Shown in pieces: positions 26,958 through 39,200 of a stretch of DNA of 39,200 nucleotides. A model generated the notes under the pieces. It did no database searches. It was given only the letters and a program-made list of their open reading frames with translations, and was not told where the DNA came from. Within the stretch, counting starts at the first letter, position 1. Each line of letters opens with the position of its first letter. The position numbers and the translations under genes were made by a program. Source of the stretch: Lysobacterales bacterium (GTDB lineage: Bacteria; Pseudomonadota; Gammaproteobacteria; Xanthomonadales; SZUA-36); contig JAOUCZ010000009.1 of assembly GCA_029859505.1 (NCBI GenBank), forward strand, positions 1 to 39,200, in the 5' to 3' direction.

Positions 26958-28973
26958 ATGTTTCTTGTGGAAGAGTTGGAAATAATTTTGAGCAAATCTT
27001 TTAATGTCCCGGGACGTTCCGGGTTCCTGCCGGGTCTGATTGCCATTCTGCTGTTGGCGATGGTCACCGGTATGATCGGCGGTTGTGCCGGGACTGCAAC
27101 GGGCAGGGATACGTCTGTGTATTCCAGCCTTCAGGCCGAAGAGGTATCCTCCCAAAAGTCATCAGAAGCGTCAGCGCTTGTTGTTATTCGTTATCCGGCT
27201 CTAATTCATACCAACGCGGAAAACCTCTACGTGAGCTCCTTTGCAATCAACGCAATCGGCGGCGAGGTGCCTTACGGTGTGCAGGGCAACCGGCAGACCT
27301 CGAGGGTGGCTCAGTCCATCATTGAAAAATCCAGCTATTTTGCGATGTCTTTATACAACGAGCTAAAGAGTGTTTTGCCGGAAGGCTCGGTGCTGCTGTC
27401 GCCGCATATCGTTGAATGGGACAAGGAACGAAACCTCTACAGCCGTCCGATATTGGGCTCCGAGCAGATCCCCAGTGTGTTGACCATTGATTTTAATATC
27501 TATTCATTTCCGGATGTTAATGAGTTGATGGATGCACCCCCGGTGACATTCGGCGACCTGGTTACCCCGATGATCGTCGTCAAAAGCAGCCGCTGGGTAC
27601 AACCATCACTGGGTGGTCTGCTGATATCCAGTCCGCCGCTGGTCAGTTCGGCATGGCGGCAGGCACGTAAAGAAGCTGATAGCAGTTTCAAGTCGCGGCT
27701 TGATGATACACCTCAGGAAACAGACTCCTCACTCGAGTTTATTTCATTCCTGCGTGAGAGAGACCAGGCCGAACTCGCATTGCCGTTGAAAGCAGGTGGT
27801 GACTCGAATCAGCAAGTGGCGGCCATTGAGCAATATTCTCTGGAAAAAATCCGCATGAATGGAGCGCTTGTCGGCACTTTGCCTGAAGATTACTCCATAG
27901 ACCCATTTGTTCAGGCTTTTGTAAAAGGTGCCTCTACGCGTATCGTTGACATGCTGAACTCCATAGATCACGAGAAAGCGACGTTCTTCGCGCGACAGGC
28001 TGCGATAGAGCGGTTTGATCCTGAGTTAGCCAGGGTGTTTTTCGTACAGTCTGATGACGAGAGTGTCCGGGCTCGTCTGCAACTGGCCGAGGCGCTGGTC
28101 GGGGCGGAGCGGGAATTCCTCGCAGCGCAGTCAGACAGTATTTACGACGGCACCTACATCGGCAGTTATGGTTCGAAAATGCGGAATATTATTGCGGCTG
28201 AGTATCGGACACTTGAAGAGCGCCGCCAATTGGCACGCAAACAGAACATCACCACGGCAGTGGCCGTGATAGCGCTGGCCGGTGCCGTTTATGGTGCGGT
28301 GGCATCGGCAGCAAGTACCGCTGCCATCGTGACCACTTCAGGGGCCTTACTGGCAGGTTCCGGTTGGGCACTGCATGAAACACTTGAAACCAAAACCGAG
28401 TCAAAAGAGGTCAATCGGTATTTTCTAGCTCGAATGGCACCTGCTTTTGACCGGCAGATGTCGGTGCAAATGGAGTGGCTGGAATCCAAGGAATTGATCA
28501 CCGCACGTGGTTTTGCAGAATTCAGAAACAAGACATTGAGTCTCTACCAGTCAAGGGTCAGGTCCATGCAGGTAAGTGCTGAGGAACAATGCCGTTTTGA
28601 GCATCCATCATTCGGATCGAGTGGACGCTGGTATGGTGTTTGTGAAGATGGCCTTGCAGCGGGCAGGGGTTACGGGCTGATCATGAATGAGCACGGGGAT
28701 ACCGTTGAATTTATTGGTGAAGCCGAGAACGGACTGGCTTCGGGTGCTGGTGGCATGATCGTGCATCGTCGTGGCCGGGTTGGGGCGACCTATTACGAAG
28801 GTGGTTTCAAGCATGGATTGCCTGATGGTGTCGTACGGATTGAAGAGCCCGGTCAGTCACCAAAAACCCGTTTGTATAAAGCAGGTACGGATATCGGCAA
28901 GGGCGATACCGCACGTTTGCAAAGTCTGAATTTTGCACTTAACTCAGTTGCTACGGGCCCGTCAGCACCATGA
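26958..28973 (+). CDS. Large putative lipoprotein with a MORN-like C-terminus
   Basis: Up to 671 residues, unknown function. A hydrophobic N-terminal segment ends in the lipobox IGGC (Cys43), so the mature protein is probably membrane-anchored in the periplasm. After a folded region (about 70-250) comes a helical part, then a Gly/Ala-rich hydrophobic stretch (about 430-470) that could cross a membrane or pack as a glycine-zipper hairpin. Residues about 553-640 contain Gly-Tyr/Phe-Gly-type strand pairs (GRWYGVCEDGLAAGRGYG, YYEGGFKHGLPDG) like MORN repeats. ATG 26958 leaves a long pre-signal region. TTG 26988 would give a neater signal peptide of 661 residues, but its ribosome site is weak. The stop overlaps the next gene's start as ATGA. 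Confidence 0.8.
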   Translation: MFLVEELEIILSKSFNVPGRSGFLPGLIAILLLAMVTGMIGGCAGTATGRDTSVYSSLQAEEVSSQKSSEASALVVIRYPALIHTNAENLYVSSFAINAIGGEVPYGVQGNRQTSRVAQSIIEKSSYFAMSLYNELKSVLPEGSVLLSPHIVEWDKERNLYSRPILGSEQIPSVLTIDFNIYSFPDVNELMDAPPVTFGDLVTPMIVVKSSRWVQPSLGGLLISSPPLVSSAWRQARKEADSSFKSRLDDTPQETDSSLEFISFLRERDQAELALPLKAGGDSNQQVAAIEQYSLEKIRMNGALVGTLPEDYSIDPFVQAFVKGASTRIVDMLNSIDHEKATFFARQAAIERFDPELARVFFVQSDDESVRARLQLAEALVGAEREFLAAQSDSIYDGTYIGSYGSKMRNIIAAEYRTLEERRQLARKQNITTAVAVIALAGAVYGAVASAASTAAIVTTSGALLAGSGWALHETLETKTESKEVNRYFLARMAPAFDRQMSVQMEWLESKELITARGFAEFRNKTLSLYQSRVRSMQVSAEEQCRFEHPSFGSSGRWYGVCEDGLAAGRGYGLIMNEHGDTVEFIGEAENGLASGAGGMIVHRRGRVGATYYEGGFKHGLPDGVVRIEEPGQSPKTRLYKAGTDIGKGDTARLQSLNFALNSVATGPSAP

Positions 28974-29755
28974 ACCTGTGGTTTAAGGGTATAACGCAAA
29001 TTGTATTGCTGCTACTGCTAATGGTTGTTGATGTCAGTGCCAATACCAGCATAGAGGACATCAATGATCTCCCGCCCGGTGAGCAATATCGGCAACTGAG
29101 CCTGATACTGTTAATTTCAGGTGGTGCTGACCCGGCCTTGATGGAGGCGCTTGCACCGAAGGATGACATCGATCAGGGCAGGGCGGCTTCCCGGCTTAGT
29201 CCAGACGATTACAAAACACCTCTGATCCGTATTGTTGACCAGGAGTCGATGCTGACCGGGGCTGCGTTCCTGTTACGGTTTGCCCAGGAATCCAATGATG
29301 AAATCCAGGCAAACCTTGCCACGATTAATGCTAACAACCCGGTTCTGATCAGCATGGCAGATATGAATGCGATCACCGAGGATGCCATCATTATTCGCAA
29401 TGCAATCGCCGATGCGATCAGTTATTCGAGCCTGATGGATAATGAGCAGATTGCCATGCACCTGCAAAACTACAGAACCCAGACCATACGTCTGAGAAAC
29501 ATCATGGAGTTTGAGCTTTTTGACGAGGAGCTTGAGCGCTTGACAGACGAAGCTATACTGTCTGTGGGCGGAAAACTGGACGCATATCAGCGTATGTTTG
29601 ACGAAGAAGTGAATTCAAAAGACCTTGACCGCCAGTTTGATGCGGCAAAATATATCTTCAATCGAACTGAAAAGTTCGATGAAAAAGCGGGCATACTAAC
29701 CGAGGAGATCATGAAAAACGTGATAATCTCGCAAAGTAACCCCAATAATCCTTAG
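28970..29755 (+). CDS. Exported helical protein, translationally coupled to the lipoprotein
   Basis: A 261-residue protein with a signal peptide (residues 1-24, ending DVSA), followed by an acidic and mostly helical sequence without cysteine. No catalytic motif or known domain is seen. Its ATG overlaps the TGA of the MORN-like lipoprotein (ATGA), a strong sign that the two are made together and may form a complex in the periplasm. Transcription converges with the YbaK-like gene 53 bases further on. Function unknown. Confidence 0.8.
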   Translation: MNLWFKGITQIVLLLLLMVVDVSANTSIEDINDLPPGEQYRQLSLILLISGGADPALMEALAPKDDIDQGRAASRLSPDDYKTPLIRIVDQESMLTGAAFLLRFAQESNDEIQANLATINANNPVLISMADMNAITEDAIIIRNAIADAISYSSLMDNEQIAMHLQNYRTQTIRLRNIMEFELFDEELERLTDEAILSVGGKLDAYQRMFDEEVNSKDLDRQFDAAKYIFNRTEKFDEKAGILTEEIMKNVIISQSNPNNP

Positions 29756-32250: not shown

Positions 32251-34740
32251 ATGAAAAAGTATGTCTCGATACTCGCGCTATTGCTGTTACCAGCCTTGGC
32301 GTTGAGTGCTGTCCAACAAATTGAACCCCAGGTTGCAGCATCTGTAGCAAATGCCAACGGGGTGATCAATGAGACGCCGAATCGCTGGTTCGTTGAACTG
32401 GCCAGCAAACCGGCATCTGAAGGAACCAGTATAAAAGCACTGAAAATGGAAAAGGCTGCTTTCCACTCCCAAGCGAGAAAAGCAGGCCTGAAGTATAAAC
32501 AGCGTTATGAGTTCCATACGCTTTTCAACGGTTTGTCAGTTACGATCGACCCCAAGTCACTAGGCGCCTTGTCCCGTATCCCAGGTATCAAGGCTTTGTA
32601 TCCAGTGCTTTCACTATCGCTTCCGGAAACCGTTAGTAGCAACCCGAATCTTTCTACCGCAATTACGATGACGGGCGCGGATATCGCCCAGACTGAACTG
32701 GGTTTTAACGGTGCGGGAATTAGAGTAGCTGTTGTGGACACCGGTATTGATTATGACCACCCAGACCTTGGTGGTTGCTTTGGTGATGGTTGCCGCGTCG
32801 CGTTTGGCTACGACCTGGTAGGCGACGACTATGACGCTAACACCAATCCGGTTCCCGTCCCCGACGATGATCCCGATGATTGTGGCGGTCATGGTACGCA
32901 TGTAGCCGGTATTGTTGGTGCCAACGGCACCGTGGTTGGCGTAGCCCCGGATGTGACCTTTGGTGCCTACCGTGTATTTGGCTGTGAAGGCTCAACCGAC
33001 GCAGACATCATGATTGCTGCAATGGAAATGGCGCTGGCTGATGGCATGGATGTGCTGAATATGAGCATCGGTGCCGCTTTTTGGGGCTGGCCGCAGTACC
33101 CGACGGCTGCCGCCAGTGATCGGCTGGTGAACAAGGGTGTGGTTGTAGTTGCATCCATTGGTAACAGCGGAACATCTGGCACGTTTGCTGCCGGTGCGCC
33201 AGGTGTGGGCAAGAAAGTTATTGGTGTTGCATCTTTTGACAATATTCAGAGCACACAACCCGCATTTGATGTAAACGGAACGCTGATTGGCTACAACCAT
33301 GCGTCCTTTTCCGATCTCCCACCGACTTCAGGTACCGAGGAAATCGTGTTTGTTGGACAAGGGTGCGATGCCGATTTGCCACTATTGGAGAATCCGGCGG
33401 GTAAAGTAGCCTTGATTATTCGCGGTGCTTGTACATTTAACGAAAAAGCCACCAATGCGTTGGATGCCGGAGCTACAGCTGCAGTCATAATGAACAATCG
33501 ACCTGGTAATCTGAACCCTACGCTGGGCACTTATGTTCCGATTGTCGCGGTGGGAATAACCCAGGCTGATGGTGAGTTCATCCAGTCCCAGGCAGCTCCC
33601 ACCATGATGACCTGGACAAGTCAGGTAGTAACAACGCCACTAGAAACGGCGGGACTCATTGCATCATCCAGTTCATATGGTCTGGCAGCAGATCTCAGCC
33701 TCAAACCTGACATCGGTGCACCGGGCGGAAGCATCTATTCGACTTATCCACTTGAGCTGGGCGGTTATGCATCTCTGGGTGGTACATCAATGGCATCACC
33801 ACATGTTGCGGGTGGCGCAGCCCTGCTGTTGCAAGCGCATCCGAAAACCAACTCACAGGCAATGCGCCGTATCCTTCAGAACAGTGCTGATCCTGCTGCC
33901 TGGAGCCTGAACCCGGAATCTGGCTTCTATGACAGCGTACACCGACAGGGTGCCGGTATGCTCGACATCGATGATGCAATTCTGGCTACAACCAGGATCA
34001 AGCCTGGGAAGATTTCCCTTGGTGAAAGCGAATGGGGTCCGGTTGTTCACACACTGACCATCCAGAACAGGGCTGACACAGATGTAACCTATGGTATCTG
34101 GGAGCAATGGAATGCGGTTGCCACTACTGGTACGTTTGCCGCTGACATGGGTTACTGGCCATCAGACGGATACCTGATCATGCCGTCAAGTGTCGTGGTT
34201 CCAGCCAATGGTGAGGCAGAGGTAAACGTTACATTTGTCCCACCCACCGGACCTGGTCTTTCAATCTACGGTGGTTACATCCTGTTCCAAACCCAAGATG
34301 GCACAAAGAGTTATCGAGTTCCGTATGCGGGGTTTGACGGTGACTACCAGGCCTTATCGGTTCTCTATGCGAACCCGTATGGATTGCCCTTTATAGTGAA
34401 CGAAGCACCAAGCTATACCATGGTGGGCGACGATATACCCGACTTCTGGGTTAATTTTGGTCAACAAGCCCGCAAATTCCGCATGGAGGTCTTCGATGCC
34501 GTAAAAGGCAAAGCCTGGCATCGGGCTTATGACTTTGATTACTTTGGTCGTAATTCCTCCGAAGGGAACGTCTATTCATTCCCATGGGATGGCACCACGG
34601 TGAGCGGGAATAAAGTCAGAACGGTACCAGATGGAGAATACTATGTCGTAATCTCTGTGCTGAAAGCACTTGGTGATGACAATAATCCCGACCATTGGGA
34701 AACCTGGGCCTCGCCGGTGTTTAGTATCGACAGGCCTTAG
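32251..34740 (+). CDS. Secreted subtilisin-family (S8) protease with PA domain
   Basis: An 829-residue exported serine protease. A signal peptide (residues 1-20, ending ALS or LSA) is followed by an I9-like propeptide (about 45-125). The catalytic domain has D163 (VVDTGID), H214 (GGHGTHVAG), the oxyanion-hole N305 (SIGNSG) and S513 (GGTSMASPHVAGG). A protease-associated (PA) domain is inserted at about 345-450 (IRGACTFNEKATNALDAGATAAVIMNN). After the catalytic domain, about 590-690 resembles the Fn3-like domain of C5a-peptidase-type proteases, then a further C-terminal beta region. The ribosome site AGGAGG is ten bases before the ATG. A strong terminator follows 29 bases after the stop. It is a paralogue of the protease at 35853-38765, which faces it. 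Confidence 0.93.
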   Translation: MKKYVSILALLLLPALALSAVQQIEPQVAASVANANGVINETPNRWFVELASKPASEGTSIKALKMEKAAFHSQARKAGLKYKQRYEFHTLFNGLSVTIDPKSLGALSRIPGIKALYPVLSLSLPETVSSNPNLSTAITMTGADIAQTELGFNGAGIRVAVVDTGIDYDHPDLGGCFGDGCRVAFGYDLVGDDYDANTNPVPVPDDDPDDCGGHGTHVAGIVGANGTVVGVAPDVTFGAYRVFGCEGSTDADIMIAAMEMALADGMDVLNMSIGAAFWGWPQYPTAAASDRLVNKGVVVVASIGNSGTSGTFAAGAPGVGKKVIGVASFDNIQSTQPAFDVNGTLIGYNHASFSDLPPTSGTEEIVFVGQGCDADLPLLENPAGKVALIIRGACTFNEKATNALDAGATAAVIMNNRPGNLNPTLGTYVPIVAVGITQADGEFIQSQAAPTMMTWTSQVVTTPLETAGLIASSSSYGLAADLSLKPDIGAPGGSIYSTYPLELGGYASLGGTSMASPHVAGGAALLLQAHPKTNSQAMRRILQNSADPAAWSLNPESGFYDSVHRQGAGMLDIDDAILATTRIKPGKISLGESEWGPVVHTLTIQNRADTDVTYGIWEQWNAVATTGTFAADMGYWPSDGYLIMPSSVVVPANGEAEVNVTFVPPTGPGLSIYGGYILFQTQDGTKSYRVPYAGFDGDYQALSVLYANPYGLPFIVNEAPSYTMVGDDIPDFWVNFGQQARKFRMEVFDAVKGKAWHRAYDFDYFGRNSSEGNVYSFPWDGTTVSGNKVRTVPDGEYYVVISVLKALGDDNNPDHWETWASPVFSIDRP

Positions 34741-34769
34741 TTTTAGCCAGTTAGAATATGTGTCAAATC

Positions 34770-34804
34770 ACTGCCCCGGAACTAACTATCCGGGGCAGTT
34801 TTTT
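34770..34804 (+). terminator. Intrinsic terminator of the first protease gene
   Basis: An eleven-pair stem (ACTGCCCCGGA with TCCGGGGCAGT) closes an eight-base loop and runs into six T residues. Confidence 0.93.
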
Positions 34805-34985
34805 ATCCACTAAACGTCGCCCTAAAAAACGAGTGCACTTTGCATACAGCTTATTAACGCAAGGATGGGTAGAAATCCAAGTGACGTCCATATTTACTCC
34901 CACTCAAATGAGGCATTAAGGCCTTTCCATATTTGGTATGATGCCCAACCAGAATATTACTGACTGAAAGTGAATTTTATCTCTT

Positions 34986-35756
34986 ATGAACACACAAAAA
35001 ATTGATCGACCCTTCCGCCGTAGATCCTCATTACTCGCGATCGCAATGGCATCAGCACTGGTGACTAATCCGGCTTTTGCATCTGAACCTGATTCAACCA
35101 AGGGTGAACTGGATAGTGTGATGATGGGACTCAACAAAGAGCAGAAACAAAAGGTTGTCAAAGCCAGGGAGGAGCAGGCCAAGATAGGTTATTCCAAAGA
35201 GGAAGAGGCGGCCATTAATCTGGCTATCAGTAAAGTCAACGAACGGACACCCGTTTCAAGGGAGGAACTAACCAACCTTAGAATTCGATCCATACAGTGG
35301 CCTGATTCCAGTCTCGGTTGCGCTGAACCCGGTGTTGAATATCTGCAAAAAGTAGTACAGGGATACCTTGTTAATTACAACGTTGCTGAGGAATTCTATT
35401 CGGTCAACGTCGGTGATGGCAGAGCCATTGTCTGCGACCGTGTAAACGACTTCATGCTGGAAAGAAAACAGCGTGCAGACTCAGTTATCCGCTCACATCG
35501 GACCGCAAGGCTTGATCTGGCGGAGAAATTAATGGTCGACCCCGAACTGGTAAAGATGAACAAAATTAAGGTTGAGACCTGGGCTGACTCGAGTCTGGGT
35601 TGTCCGCAACCGGGTCAGCAGTACAAAGCGGGTCCGATAGAGGGACTTAAAATCAACATGACCTGCCGTGACAAGAAGTACGAGTATCGGGTTCCATTGG
35701 AGGGTGGGGAATTCATCAGTTGCACAGAAATCATTTCCTGTCACGAAACTGAATAA
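34986..35756 (+). CDS. Exported protein with two W-x-DSSLGC-x-x-PG modules
   Basis: A 256-residue protein with a basic signal peptide (cleavage likely after AFA, residue 32). An acidic helical linker (about 40-95) leads to two homologous modules: W105-PDSSLGC-AEPG...C150 and W199-ADSSLGC-PQPG...C246, each with a Tyr six residues after PG and a second Cys about 40 residues downstream. C112-C150 and C206-C246 could form disulfides. I recall the same W-x-D-x-S-LGC-P-x-PG motif in uncharacterised secreted proteins of several phyla, but know no assigned function. It lies between the two S8 proteases and ends in a bidirectional terminator shared with the second. An inhibitor, chaperone or substrate of the proteases is possible but unproven. 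Confidence 0.85.
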   Translation: MNTQKIDRPFRRRSSLLAIAMASALVTNPAFASEPDSTKGELDSVMMGLNKEQKQKVVKAREEQAKIGYSKEEEAAINLAISKVNERTPVSREELTNLRIRSIQWPDSSLGCAEPGVEYLQKVVQGYLVNYNVAEEFYSVNVGDGRAIVCDRVNDFMLERKQRADSVIRSHRTARLDLAEKLMVDPELVKMNKIKVETWADSSLGCPQPGQQYKAGPIEGLKINMTCRDKKYEYRVPLEGGEFISCTEIISCHETE

Positions 35757-35773
35757 ACCACATCAGCACCAAA

Positions 35774-35808
35774 AAAATGGGCCGCTAATGCGGCCCATTT
35801 TGTTTTTT
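35774..35808. terminator. Bidirectional terminator between converging genes
   Basis: A twelve-pair stem (AAAATGGGCCGC with GCGGCCCATTTT) closes a TAAT loop. T-rich sequence follows on the plus side, and seven A residues (35771-35777) on the other side give a T-run in minus-strand RNA. It serves the DSSLGC protein and the second protease. Confidence 0.93.
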
Positions 35809-35852
35809 GGATGCCTAATCTGTTTACCAGACTATTTATCCATGAGTTACCT

Positions 35853-38765
35853 TCATTCTATGGTAACGGTTTGCGCCTGGTCTCCCGCTGAATTGTTCGG
35901 GAAAATCCATAGCATATCGCCAGAAGGTCCAGATGTTCCAAGGTGAGCGCCACCGCCGCCAAGGAATCCAACAGATGCTGCTTCAGGCAGGATTTCATTG
36001 GCGGTATCAACCGTACCAGTCTGTATGTCGATGCTGCCATCACGACCAAACACGACCAAGGTGTAATTGAAGCTGTCGGTGACAAAGCCTCCACTTGAGT
36101 CCATGGTAAATGGCAAAATCGCAACACGATCATTATAGTCCACGCTTGTGAAGAACCAGTCCAGGAACCCGCCGGGTCCGGCCAAATTAAACTGAGCCGT
36201 AACCATATCTCCGGCAGTTCCGGCTGAACTCAGGGCTGAGTAATCAGCTCCCACCAGGACTGCGTCATCATTACCATCTTTGTCGATATCGATATAGATA
36301 TCCCACTCAAGATTGGATGGAGACTCCCAGATCTGTTCGGACGAAACTGCGAATTCCATCACATTAAAACCAAAATAGAAGTTCGGATCTGCACTCCGGA
36401 ACCCGACCGCATCGATTGAATTGTTGGTGCCGTCAAGTAACAGTCCATCCAGACCTGCGAGCGTGAATCCTTCACCAAAGCCGGCGGCCTGGCCACCGTA
36501 ATTCTGAACGAGCAGTCCGTCGTCACTCCATTCCGCTTTCATACGGGACGCAGGGTCAACCGTGGCCATGTAACCAATGCGAAGCGTATCTTCTCCGTCA
36601 TCCAGTACACACCAGCCATCGACCTCGGTCTGGGTCAGGTAGAAGGGGACGTCATAAGGCATCATGGTAGGATCTAGAGTGATACTAATCTTGAATTTCT
36701 TAGTACTGTTACCTCTAACCTTAACACCCGCATCACAACTCACGCTGACACCCGGCACCGTCTGGTTGGGTATATGCGAAGCGGTAAAATTGCGTGTGCT
36801 ACCTGAGATATCGGTAACATAAATGGTTTGTTTCAACATCTGATGACTATTCGGATTCAGACGTCCAAAGCTGACGCCACCTGGAGATGCGTAACTGCTC
36901 AGGCTCATCGCGTTAGCAACATCAACGCGGCCAACACCCTGACGGGAGAGAGGCAGCGGTTGGTTCATATCAATCGTGGAATTCTGAATGATTGCCTTGA
37001 TGGCTGCGGAATCTAGATTTGGATGCTGTTGACGCATCAATGCCGCAACACCGGCGGTATGCGGAGAAGCCATAGAGGTGCCCTGGAAATTTGCTGAACC
37101 GTCAACGGTACCCGAGGCTGTTGAAACAATGCTTACACCCGGAAGGGTGACATCAGGTTTAAAGGTTGAACCACCGTGACCTGGACCACGAGAAGAGAAA
37201 CCGGCGATCAGGTCAGCAAACTGGGTTGGTGTTTCAAGTGTATCGTCCAACAGTGCAGTAGCTGAGTCACCGCCACCAATGGCTGCGCTCAAGGCAAAGC
37301 CATCTGTCGATGGGATCATGACAGCCGCAACACCAGCTCCTTCCAAACCGCCCATAATGATCGGGGCGACACGTGTAGGATCGGCGCCGTCGTTATACAC
37401 GACAACCGCTGTGGCTCCAGCTGCTTCAGCATTTGCGACTTTGTCAGCAAACGAGCAAGCACCGCGTGAGATCAACGCAACACCAGCGGTCATATCGGTC
37501 GTGATACCCCCGGTACTTGTACAACCAAGGGTATTCGGGTCCTGAACCAGTGGGCCGGAAAAAGGACCATCACTGACCGCAACCGGGCTAGTGCCCTCTG
37601 TCGCTTCTATAAGTGCGTTGATGTCGCCTGAAACCTGAATGGCTGGCACGTCGCCGCCCTTAGTGGAAGCTGCAGTCGAAATTGCCAGACTCGCGACACC
37701 CGGTGCACCGGTAATATACGGCACATCACCTGAGTTGCCGGCTGAGGTGGCTACAACGATACCGAGTTCAGCTGCGTTGTTGCTTGCGATGGAAGATGGA
37801 TCATCCGGGGTACCCGAAGATGAGCCCAGGCTCATGTTGATGACATCAAGGTGGTCGCTCATGTCACCGTCACCATTCGGATCCATGGCCCATTCAATGG
37901 CATCGGCGGTCACAGTAGTGTAACCAGCACAGCCAAAGACTCTCAGCGCATAAAGGTCTGCACCCTTTGCAACACCGGGTCCGATGGGGTCGGGAACACC
38001 GGCGGGAACACCAATACCTGCAGCGGTACCTGCTACATGGCTGCCATGTCCATTACAATCGAGAGGGTCATCGTCAGGAACGGGCGAGTTCTCGCCATTA
38101 TAGTCATCACCTACAAAATCCCAGCCGCCAACTACTTTGGCCGTTGGATAACTATTGGTTCCATCACCACCGAAATTCTCATGTTGATAGTCGATACCTG
38201 TGTCGATGACACCTATGCTGACACCTTCACCGGTGCCAATGGCATCCCAGAATGCCTGGGTACCGATCCAGGGTACGCTCTCAGCGTTGTCAAGTTCATG
38301 CCGGCTTACCGGTGACACGCTACGAACGCCGGGTAGCGCCCTGATTTCTGAGATGGTGGCCGCGTCAACCTTGATGCGTACACCGTTTGCACCGACTCGA
38401 ATGGACGATTGCTCCCTGGCTCCAAATGCTGAAAGTGCTTTCCGCACATTCTTTTGCTGTGCAGTCACCTTTCTAGCTTGTCTTTTCTGTGAATTGCTAT
38501 TAGCCATCTTGCCAGTGCGCTTCATGGAGTCGATATTAAGTTCTGCCACCGAAGGCACATCAAGCCTGACAAATACTTCAACTTCTCCAGACAGCAGACG
38601 CTGGGGCATAGTGACTTCTCCTCGGGCCGAAGGCCGCGAGTTCACCTGCTTTTTCTGGACTAAATCACCTGCTTGGACTACAGGCATGAACATTGAGGCG
38701 CCCAAGATAATTGCGCATGTCTTTCCGGTCACGGTCGACAATAATAATTTCTTACCTAGTGACAT
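35853..38765 (-). CDS. Secreted subtilisin-family (S8) protease with PA domain and calcium-site motifs
   Basis: A 970-residue exported serine protease. The signal peptide (residues 1-32, ending VVQA) is followed by a propeptide (about 45-155). The catalytic triad is D188 (GVIDTGID), H240 (CNGHGSHVAG) and S564 (QGTSMASPHTAG), with oxyanion N344 (SAGNSG). DPNGDGDMSD (295-304) is an acidic calcium-type loop. A PA domain (about 395-500, ISRGACSFADKVANAEAAGA) is inserted as in Vpr-like proteases. The C-terminal third contains a beta domain and a second acidic loop, DIDKDGNDD. GGAG lies ten bases before the ATG. It shares the D-x-x-GDDY...PVPDDDP...C-x-GHG layout with the first protease, so both come from a duplication or a shared subfamily. 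Calcium binding is inferred from motifs. Confidence 0.93.
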   Translation of the reverse strand: MSLGKKLLLSTVTGKTCAIILGASMFMPVVQAGDLVQKKQVNSRPSARGEVTMPQRLLSGEVEVFVRLDVPSVAELNIDSMKRTGKMANSNSQKRQARKVTAQQKNVRKALSAFGAREQSSIRVGANGVRIKVDAATISEIRALPGVRSVSPVSRHELDNAESVPWIGTQAFWDAIGTGEGVSIGVIDTGIDYQHENFGGDGTNSYPTAKVVGGWDFVGDDYNGENSPVPDDDPLDCNGHGSHVAGTAAGIGVPAGVPDPIGPGVAKGADLYALRVFGCAGYTTVTADAIEWAMDPNGDGDMSDHLDVINMSLGSSSGTPDDPSSIASNNAAELGIVVATSAGNSGDVPYITGAPGVASLAISTAASTKGGDVPAIQVSGDINALIEATEGTSPVAVSDGPFSGPLVQDPNTLGCTSTGGITTDMTAGVALISRGACSFADKVANAEAAGATAVVVYNDGADPTRVAPIIMGGLEGAGVAAVMIPSTDGFALSAAIGGGDSATALLDDTLETPTQFADLIAGFSSRGPGHGGSTFKPDVTLPGVSIVSTASGTVDGSANFQGTSMASPHTAGVAALMRQQHPNLDSAAIKAIIQNSTIDMNQPLPLSRQGVGRVDVANAMSLSSYASPGGVSFGRLNPNSHQMLKQTIYVTDISGSTRNFTASHIPNQTVPGVSVSCDAGVKVRGNSTKKFKISITLDPTMMPYDVPFYLTQTEVDGWCVLDDGEDTLRIGYMATVDPASRMKAEWSDDGLLVQNYGGQAAGFGEGFTLAGLDGLLLDGTNNSIDAVGFRSADPNFYFGFNVMEFAVSSEQIWESPSNLEWDIYIDIDKDGNDDAVLVGADYSALSSAGTAGDMVTAQFNLAGPGGFLDWFFTSVDYNDRVAILPFTMDSSGGFVTDSFNYTLVVFGRDGSIDIQTGTVDTANEILPEAASVGFLGGGGAHLGTSGPSGDMLWIFPNNSAGDQAQTVTIE

Positions 38766-39200
38766 AATTTATATGCTCCTTTTGAATCTAAACGAAACTG
38801 ACTGTTTTAACTCTTTTTCTGTAAGATAAAAAACTCAGTGTTTCCTGAAAATAGAAAATTCAGTACTGATGAACTTACAAGTACACAAATCACGCAGCTT
38901 GATAAGCTGTTAAATGGTAACCCTGATATCCAACGATACTGACAAAAATAGTTTAAGTGACAAACTTGATAAATTGAAACAAGAGCTTAAGATTGCAACT
39001 TAAAGTTAATTCATTCCCTTTACCCATGAACGCTTCCATCCATGAAGAAACCTAGGCTAGACCGTATACACAAAGAAGTCAATTTTGACGACAAAAAAAA
39101 GAAAATAACTCAGGTTGATTGATGGCAGAGCGGGTGATTTAGACAGGTGGTAAATATCATTCTGAGGTCATTTGGATTATTTAGCGACTGTATCCGGGCT
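38766..39200. other. Right-end region with short broken reading frames
   Basis: 435 AT-rich bases upstream of the second protease. Three short frames read like protein but are broken: 38838-38942 (GTG start, 34 residues, containing FSTDELTSTQITQLDKLLNG), 38914-39003 (29 residues in the next frame, SDKLDKLKQELKIAT) and 39042-39122 (26 residues, MKKPRLDRIHKEVNFDD). The first two overlap in shifted frames, as if one small gene had suffered a frameshift. Coding status is weak; the protease promoter must also lie here. No RNA gene is seen. Confidence 0.3.

Follow-up and report, generated by a model that had tools for sequence, protein, structure and literature searches.

Emfourin (M4in) inhibits protealysin of Serratia proteamaculans and thermolysin, both metalloproteases, and its gene shares an operon with that of its protease (PMC9505478). 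Here we analyse a 39,200-nucleotide stretch of DNA from a Lysobacterales bacterium (contig JAOUCZ010000009.1, positions 1 to 39,200, forward strand; the window), in which the gene for a small exported protein with two similar modules lies tail to tail with the gene for a large secreted S8 subtilase, protease 2, and downstream of the gene for a second one, protease 1. Genes for this module neighbour S8 genes far above chance across genomes, and the sequences indicate that module protein and S8 protease are very probably functional partners of some kind. Our preferred reading of sequences and structure models, to which we assign a probability of roughly one half, is that the double-module protein would act as a dedicated inhibitor of protease 2.

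The likeness to emfourin and protealysin lies in a small-protein gene beside a protease gene and in the idea of a protein devoted to inhibition or immunity. The differences are that the module's partner is a subtilase with a PA domain (S8-PA), that the usual layout is convergent and that inhibition by the module is a proposal. Co-transcription with a protease was not found in the window, where the double-module gene is convergent with protease 2 and separated by a hairpin from protease 1. Protease-inhibitor gene pairs are already known; the module's motif strings, the module family, its pairing with S8-PA proteases and the convergent layout were found in no search made, subscription papers lying mostly outside the scope of the literature searched. 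The arrangement that a sequence-only reading of the window had described, two facing S8-PA proteases enclosing an exported two-module protein, is borne out by the open reading frames (ORFs):

32251-34740, + strand: protease 1, a secreted S8 subtilase with PA and fn3_5 domains, 829 amino acids (ORF and Pfam domain matches)
34770-34799, + strand: terminator-like hairpin after protease 1 (consensus scan)
34986-35756, + strand: exported double-module protein, 256 amino acids (ORF, structure model and a 65%-identical relative in locus L215)
35196-35465, + strand: module 1, residues 71-160 (model, and matches to profiles that include module 1 itself)
35298-35348, + strand: conserved loop of module 1, WPDSSLGCAEPGVEYLQ (alignment and conservation; coordinates counted from the sequence)
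35463-35753, + strand: module 2, residues 160-256 (model, fold comparison, and matches to profiles that include module 2 itself)
35580-35630, + strand: conserved loop of module 2, WADSSLGCPQPGQQYKA (alignment; coordinates counted from the sequence)
35774-35801, no strand assigned: terminator hairpin, perhaps serving both the double-module gene and protease 2, between which it lies (+ strand site from the scan; A-run on the other side read in the sequence)
35853-38765, - strand: protease 2, a secreted S8 subtilase with a PA domain, 970 amino acids (ORF and Pfam domain matches)

Module genes beside S8 genes

The double-module protein contains WPDSSLGCAEPG and WADSSLGCPQPG in two modules of about 90 residues each, which are 32% identical over 57 aligned residues. 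A Sec-type signal peptide (...NPAFA-SEP at its end) and the absence of a lipobox were read by eye. A plain protein search of 61 genomes gave matches in 9 besides the window's own (E <= 0.01); each of these relatives has a single module, and several appear by eye to carry a lipoprotein-type signal. The family pattern is VTWxDGSLGCPxPGMxYTQALVxG...YxYH...C, and in the alignment of the window modules with their single-module relatives W, G, C, Y, G and C are invariant. Because the module profiles include the window modules, independent support for the family comes from the plain search and its 9 other genomes. By profile, and counting the window's own genome each time, the module is present in 9 of 39 genomes of the family, at least 38 of 299 in the order sample, at least 5 of 369 in the class sample and at least 2 of 398 in the phylum sample; these three sample counts, like the S8 count for the class sample given below, are lower bounds, as candidates from some genomes were partly scored.

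The sequence-only reading knew of no described function for the module, and the databases agree. Pfam, NCBIfam and PDB sequences held no significant match to the whole protein, and no NCBIfam model fitted the module. A Pfam scan of 70 modules touched 23 families at E <= 1, only in scattered matches to one or two members each, with no cystatin or PepSY match at that threshold; I9 and other inhibitor families were likewise without a match at E <= 1, both for the window protein and for the 70 modules. The best hit of a module alignment against PDB sequences had an E of 0.58. Viral contigs returned three stretches for the whole protein and three for a 55-residue module, none of them confirmed; phages searched with the window protein, plasmids searched with one module (that of L153) and PADLOC run on two module proteins gave no match.

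A scan of genome contigs gave 152 module relatives, and the best 80 of these make up a set of 80 loci with 84 module ORFs (43 loci from Actinomycetota, 19 from Pseudomonadota, 15 from Chloroflexota, 1 from Myxococcota and 2 without a named phylum). Several observations tie these genes to S8 genes. First, an S8 gene (phmmer E < 1e-8, >200 amino acids, five S8 queries) lay within 600 bp in 34 of the 80 loci, or 35 of the 84 ORFs, against a chance expectation of 0.16 of 80 calculated from a genome-wide density of 1.70 S8 genes per Mb (307 in the 180.9 Mb of 38 module genomes, a set of our own choosing). The loci are related by descent and not independent, four of the 34 are closely related Kribbella loci with a short S8 protein, and the calling missed one overlapping pair (the second module of L145, gap 38). 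Linked loci were found in Actinomycetota (18/43), Pseudomonadota (7/19), Chloroflexota (7/15), Myxococcota (1/1) and the unnamed group (1/2). Second, 26 of the 35 linked ORFs stand tail to tail with the S8 gene and 3 head to head; on the same strand, the S8 gene is upstream in 4 and downstream in 2. Third, S8 density around the modules is 381 per Mb below 600 bp, 36 at 600-1500 bp and 0 at 1500-3000 bp, and farther out in the same loci it is 15 per Mb (3000-5000 bp) and 1.9 per Mb (5-10 kb). Set against the background density of S8 genes, these counts place the arrangement in the window beyond chance, and the neighbourhood association that the sequence-only reading had proposed to count is strong overall.

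Finally, proteases and modules vary together. Distances between proteases correlated with distances between their modules (r 0.40, 41 pairs), a value that 0 of 2000 permutations reached, and for 38 pairs r was 0.51, or 0.485 after taxonomy was taken into account. Across phyla (488 comparisons) r was 0.33, reached by 0 of 5000 within-phylum permutations. Three of the four Kribbella loci had been left out beforehand, and protease 1, the truncated L108 and L110 were then dropped to give 38 of the 41 pairs; the taxonomy of some genomes was entered by hand and the order of G314 guessed, the cross-phylum test using phylum only. The pairs are inherited together or matched to each other.

The S8 link is nevertheless far from constant. 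With linkage mapped on a 94-module tree, 24 changes are required, against a mean of 31.7 for shuffled labels, and strongly supported branches force at least 6. These changes, taken with the unlinked loci, indicate at the level of sequence that the link arose or was kept many times and is also often absent. In a second set of 42 loci from the order and class samples, partly overlapping the first, five were linked (the window, G001, G006, G314 and G185), with no S8 neighbour at G105 and none on the 3-kb contig of G363. S8 genes themselves are present in all 38 module genomes, including all 11 whose fetched module locus is unlinked; among those 11, G1068 also carries another module, which is linked, and G1069 another that lies about 1 kb from an S8 gene. 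The class sample, for comparison, has S8 in at least 211 of 369 genomes, genome size being uncontrolled.

Individual loci vary in composition. Two module -> <- S8 cassettes stand in tandem at L145:5258-12413 and at L168:2802-10230, where the two S8 proteins have different best queries, and S8 genes lie on both sides of the module in L118, L160 and L178. At L072:9223-10343, two single-module genes stand in tandem with no S8 neighbour. The convergent neighbours in Kribbella (L110:10431-11702, L112:10435-11748, L114:10441-11706 and L132:10476-11747) are short S8 proteins of 422-438 amino acids that by eye lack a signal peptide, unlike the large secreted S8 partners elsewhere. Further double-module proteins occur in L129, with an S8 neighbour, and in divergent form in L216. 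The latter (L216:2878-3966) has the loop WSDGCLGL...C in place of W-x-DGSLGC, with the first cysteine moved, and no S8 gene was found within the 12 kb examined there; similar WPDGCLGL proteins are presumably present in cyanobacteria. One DSSLGC-type module lies between the Gmad2 and Germane domains of a 716-residue protein in a metagenome-assembled genome (MAG) from Chloroflexi (L219:3279-5426), so the module can form part of other proteins.

The partner protease in the window

Relatives of the two proteases point to which of them the double-module protein belongs with. Within the genus, protease 1 and the module co-occur in the same 3 of 10 genomes, and in two genus mates (G001 and G006) the relatives of protease 1, 67% and 66% identical to it, are tail to tail with a single-module lipoprotein gene across a gap of 83 bp. 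No single-module lipoprotein gene of this kind was found in the window assembly, a MAG of 3.9 Mb in 400 contigs that is 88.67% complete, so that a copy may lie elsewhere. In the MAG G1037, a 65%-identical relative of the double-module protein is encoded tail to tail with an S8 gene at 104 bp (103 bp in the window by the same measure); the S8 protein is 80% identical to protease 2 over 956 residues and is the only one found in the 8.5 kb examined. G1037 also has a separate single-module gene (L108) tail to tail with a different S8 gene, cut by the contig end.

The pairings in G001, G006 and G1037 make a single module -> <- S8 pair for each protease the natural unit. In these terms, the window has an intact pair of double-module gene and protease 2 next to a protease 1 without its usual partner. 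The sequence-only reading had taken the small protein between the two proteases for a natural candidate inhibitor, activator or maturation factor; by position we assign it to protease 2 and not to both, protease 1 being of the kind that pairs with a single-module lipoprotein in the genus mates. The two-protease sandwich is probably secondary. A single-module remnant between protease 1 and the double-module gene was considered and rejected: the only significant blastn match was 102 bp starting inside the 3' end of protease 1, and tblastn matches below E 1 were the double-module gene itself. The idea that there are two modules because there are two flanking proteases was also rejected, as in G1037 a relative with two modules has a single S8 gene in view, about 2 kb being visible beyond it.

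Both proteases have the marks of S8 enzymes. Pfam matches are Peptidase_S8 at E 1e-52 and PA at E 3.8e-14, plus fn3_5, for protease 1 and Peptidase_S8 at E 2.9e-46 and PA at E 6.4e-16 for protease 2. The PA domain is inserted within the S8 domain (residues 370-442 in 154-555 of protease 1 and 403-491 in 179-612 of protease 2), and DTGID, GHG[TS]H and GTSMASPH are kept in both, so that the S8 catalytic Asp, His and Ser motifs are present. An identity of 34% over 595 residues marks the two as distant paralogues on sequence grounds and rules out a recent duplication. PADLOC gave subtilase-model matches and weak IetS matches for both.

A terminator scan returned 5 sites in the real sequence against a mean of 1.5 in shuffles. 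Because one terminator-like hairpin (34770-34799) follows protease 1, the double-module gene is probably not on the protease 1 transcript. The terminator that the sequence-only reading took to be shared stands in part: the hairpin at 35774-35801 lies between the stops of the double-module gene and protease 2, and since an A-run and a T-run flank its stem it could serve both strands; the scan listed the + strand site alone. The contig ends 435 bp upstream of the protease 2 start codon (38766-39200), and the neighbouring gene upstream lies beyond it.

Predicted fold and conserved loop

The model of a single module, that of L104, was built from 70 sequences and has a mean predicted local distance difference test score (pLDDT) of 95. 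It contains a helix (6-21), strands at 29-38, 57-66, 69-76 and 82-84, and an ordered loop at 39-56, which gives a predicted fold of a four-stranded sheet with one helix packed on it and a long, ordered loop joining strands 1 and 2. This loop (W-x-D-G-S-L-G-C-P) is the most conserved of six segments, with a mean top-residue frequency of 0.80 against 0.37-0.59, and W38, G44, C45, Y52, G59 and C84 are invariant (L104 numbering). As both cysteines are invariant, C45 and C84 could form a disulphide that ties the loop to the last strand. The model of the window protein, built from an alignment of 16 rows, which MAFFT had divided between the two modules, has the same order of elements twice (helix 71-87 and four strands; helix 152-181 and four strands) at a mean pLDDT of 75.

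In VIA fold comparisons, the designed cystatin fold 4r80 came first for the double-module model, on module 2 (Z 8.3, root-mean-square deviation 2.5, 70 aligned), tied with lipoprotein CD1622 (4exr, Z 7.9); further down were copper amine oxidase domains, a DUF4467 protein, YpmB (2gu3), YpeB (5boi, Z 6.4), chain B of the fungalysin entry 4k90 (Z 6.2, on module 1), affimers, stefin B (4n6v) and monellin. For the single module, 4exr came first (Z 6.3), followed by amine oxidase domains and affimers. A viral fold library gave no match at E <= 0.001. The predicted fold thus resembles the cystatin/PepSY arrangement weakly at best, and this likeness shows no function. With cystatin-, PepSY- and propeptide-type domains (4r80, 4n6v, 4exr, 2gu3, 5boi, 4k90_B, 3nqy) the module shares a predicted single helix on an antiparallel sheet; it differs in the W-x-DGSLGCP loop with its cysteine, which marks the module family, and in having no match to the Pfam cystatin or PepSY models and no significant Foldseek match. 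We take several of these comparison structures to be protease inhibitors or propeptides, 4k90 chain B being presumably the fungalysin prodomain and 3nqy and 3nqz presumably propeptide domains. On this cystatin-like reading of the models, we infer that the conserved loop occupies the position of the first inhibitory hairpin of cystatins.

Inhibition and its alternatives

Inhibition of protease 2 seems to us the best reading because the module is genetically tied to a secreted protease with intact motifs, is frequently lipid-anchored, and has an ordered, conserved loop and a fold like those of inhibitors or propeptides. After export, the loop would dock on the mature protease and block its activity for as long as the enzyme is still in the periplasm or on the cell surface; the producer would be spared until the protease is released. 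Single-module, lipoprotein-like relatives would stay on the cell, and the double-module form of the window might occupy two protease molecules at once or hold a single one with higher affinity. More tentatively, a phylum-spanning family of exported cystatin-like modules may form a dedicated inhibitor system of PA-domain subtilases, one that acts through a single near-invariant, disulphide-bridged loop instead of a variable substrate-like loop and that has spread as convergent module -> <- S8 cassettes.

Several points weigh against inhibition. No S8 gene lies within 600 bp in 46 of the 80 loci, although two of these (L115, L176) end less than 60 bp from the module and three have an S8 gene at 1.2-1.4 kb. 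The neighbourhood association is not universal: family f9 (Wenzhouxiangella and kin, by inference) has an S8 neighbour in 0 of 29 loci, one of which has a subtilase-like ORF 6 kb away, and the window's own family has one in 0 of 6 other loci. Across the 38 module genomes, S8 matches number 307 and module matches 52, so that a module gene adjoins only a minority of S8 genes. Linkage and co-variation reflect co-inheritance of neighbours and are not proof of contact. Foldseek gave no match in the PDB at E <= 0.001 for either model, and the middling VIA Z-scores may reflect only a common arrangement. Substrate-like inhibitors are expected to have a variable residue and the module loop is nearly invariant; cysteine proteases are the main targets of cystatins. 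Emfourin and its protease are co-transcribed, whereas module and S8 genes usually converge. Convergent layout and loop invariance do not fit a textbook inhibitor, and they leave room for tether or maturation roles.

The domains of the partner proteases bear on these roles. All 36 neighbouring S8 proteins match S8 in Pfam, and PA is found in 30, I9 in 21, fn3_6 in 20, fn3_5 in 12 and PPC in 10. In their alignment, the catalytic Asp and His columns are at least 90% conserved and the Ser is invariant (columns assigned by motif). Peptidase inhibitor I9 (PF05922) resembles the module in being a partner of S8 enzymes and a small domain of helices and sheet; it differs in lying inside the protease polypeptide, whereas the module has a separate gene and no module member matches I9. 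An unlikely alternative is a maturation or secretion factor, the module being an external foldase or escort for the folding, processing or envelope crossing of a large subtilase. The same linkage and co-variation data apply to it, a lipoprotein or periplasmic location suits a foldase, and I9 was not matched at E <= 0.001 in 15 of the 36 partners, of which one or more are truncated; there is also the weak fold likeness to 4k90_B, 3nqy and 3nqz, which we take to be propeptide domains that both chaperone and inhibit. However, the I9 propeptide in the other 21 suggests that many partners already hold an intramolecular chaperone, which weakens this alternative, and the excess of S8 over module matches argues against a general need. 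Dedicated foldases, moreover, are normally co-transcribed with their client, unlike the 26 of 35 convergent genes here.

We consider it improbable that the module is instead a surface receptor or tether, a lipid-anchored protein that retains, positions or guides the protease through a non-catalytic part such as PA or fn3. A lipobox-like stretch lies upstream of the module in 58 of the 84 module ORFs (simple regular expression), PA domains, which often mediate protein contacts, are common among the partners, and a nearly invariant loop fits a conserved docking site; as a common function, however, tethering is at odds with the window protein and the L099 protein, both without a lipobox by eye. 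Least probable is a general envelope module that binds a ligand or acts as a sensor, carried along with S8 genes in accessory cassettes and making no protease contact: many module genes lie in unrelated neighbourhoods, one module is built into the Germane/Gmad2 protein and the linkage changes on the module tree imply a link often gained or lost, but the four named phyla all show the link, the S8 partners are diverse and one orientation predominates, no permutation reached the cross-phylum distance correlation, and repeated re-pairing is unexpected of a hitchhiker.

Subtilases are among the common secreted proteases of bacteria and have industrial uses, and to our knowledge the means by which producers protect themselves against their own subtilases are known for few. 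The partner family described here is widespread and unnamed, and its confidently modelled module makes it a concrete candidate for such self-protection, in a convergent layout that is unusual for enzyme-partner pairs. Pairs exist in named strains (Povalibacter uvarum, Actinotalea ferrariae and Paraglaciecola sp.), and the near-invariant loop offers a direct target for mutational testing.

Elsewhere in the window, two adjoining genes at 26958-29755, downstream of tRNA-Gly and tRNA-Cys, encode proteins of 671 and 261 amino acids. Hydrophobic segments are visible by eye at both N termini, and Pfam at E <= 1 matched neither protein.

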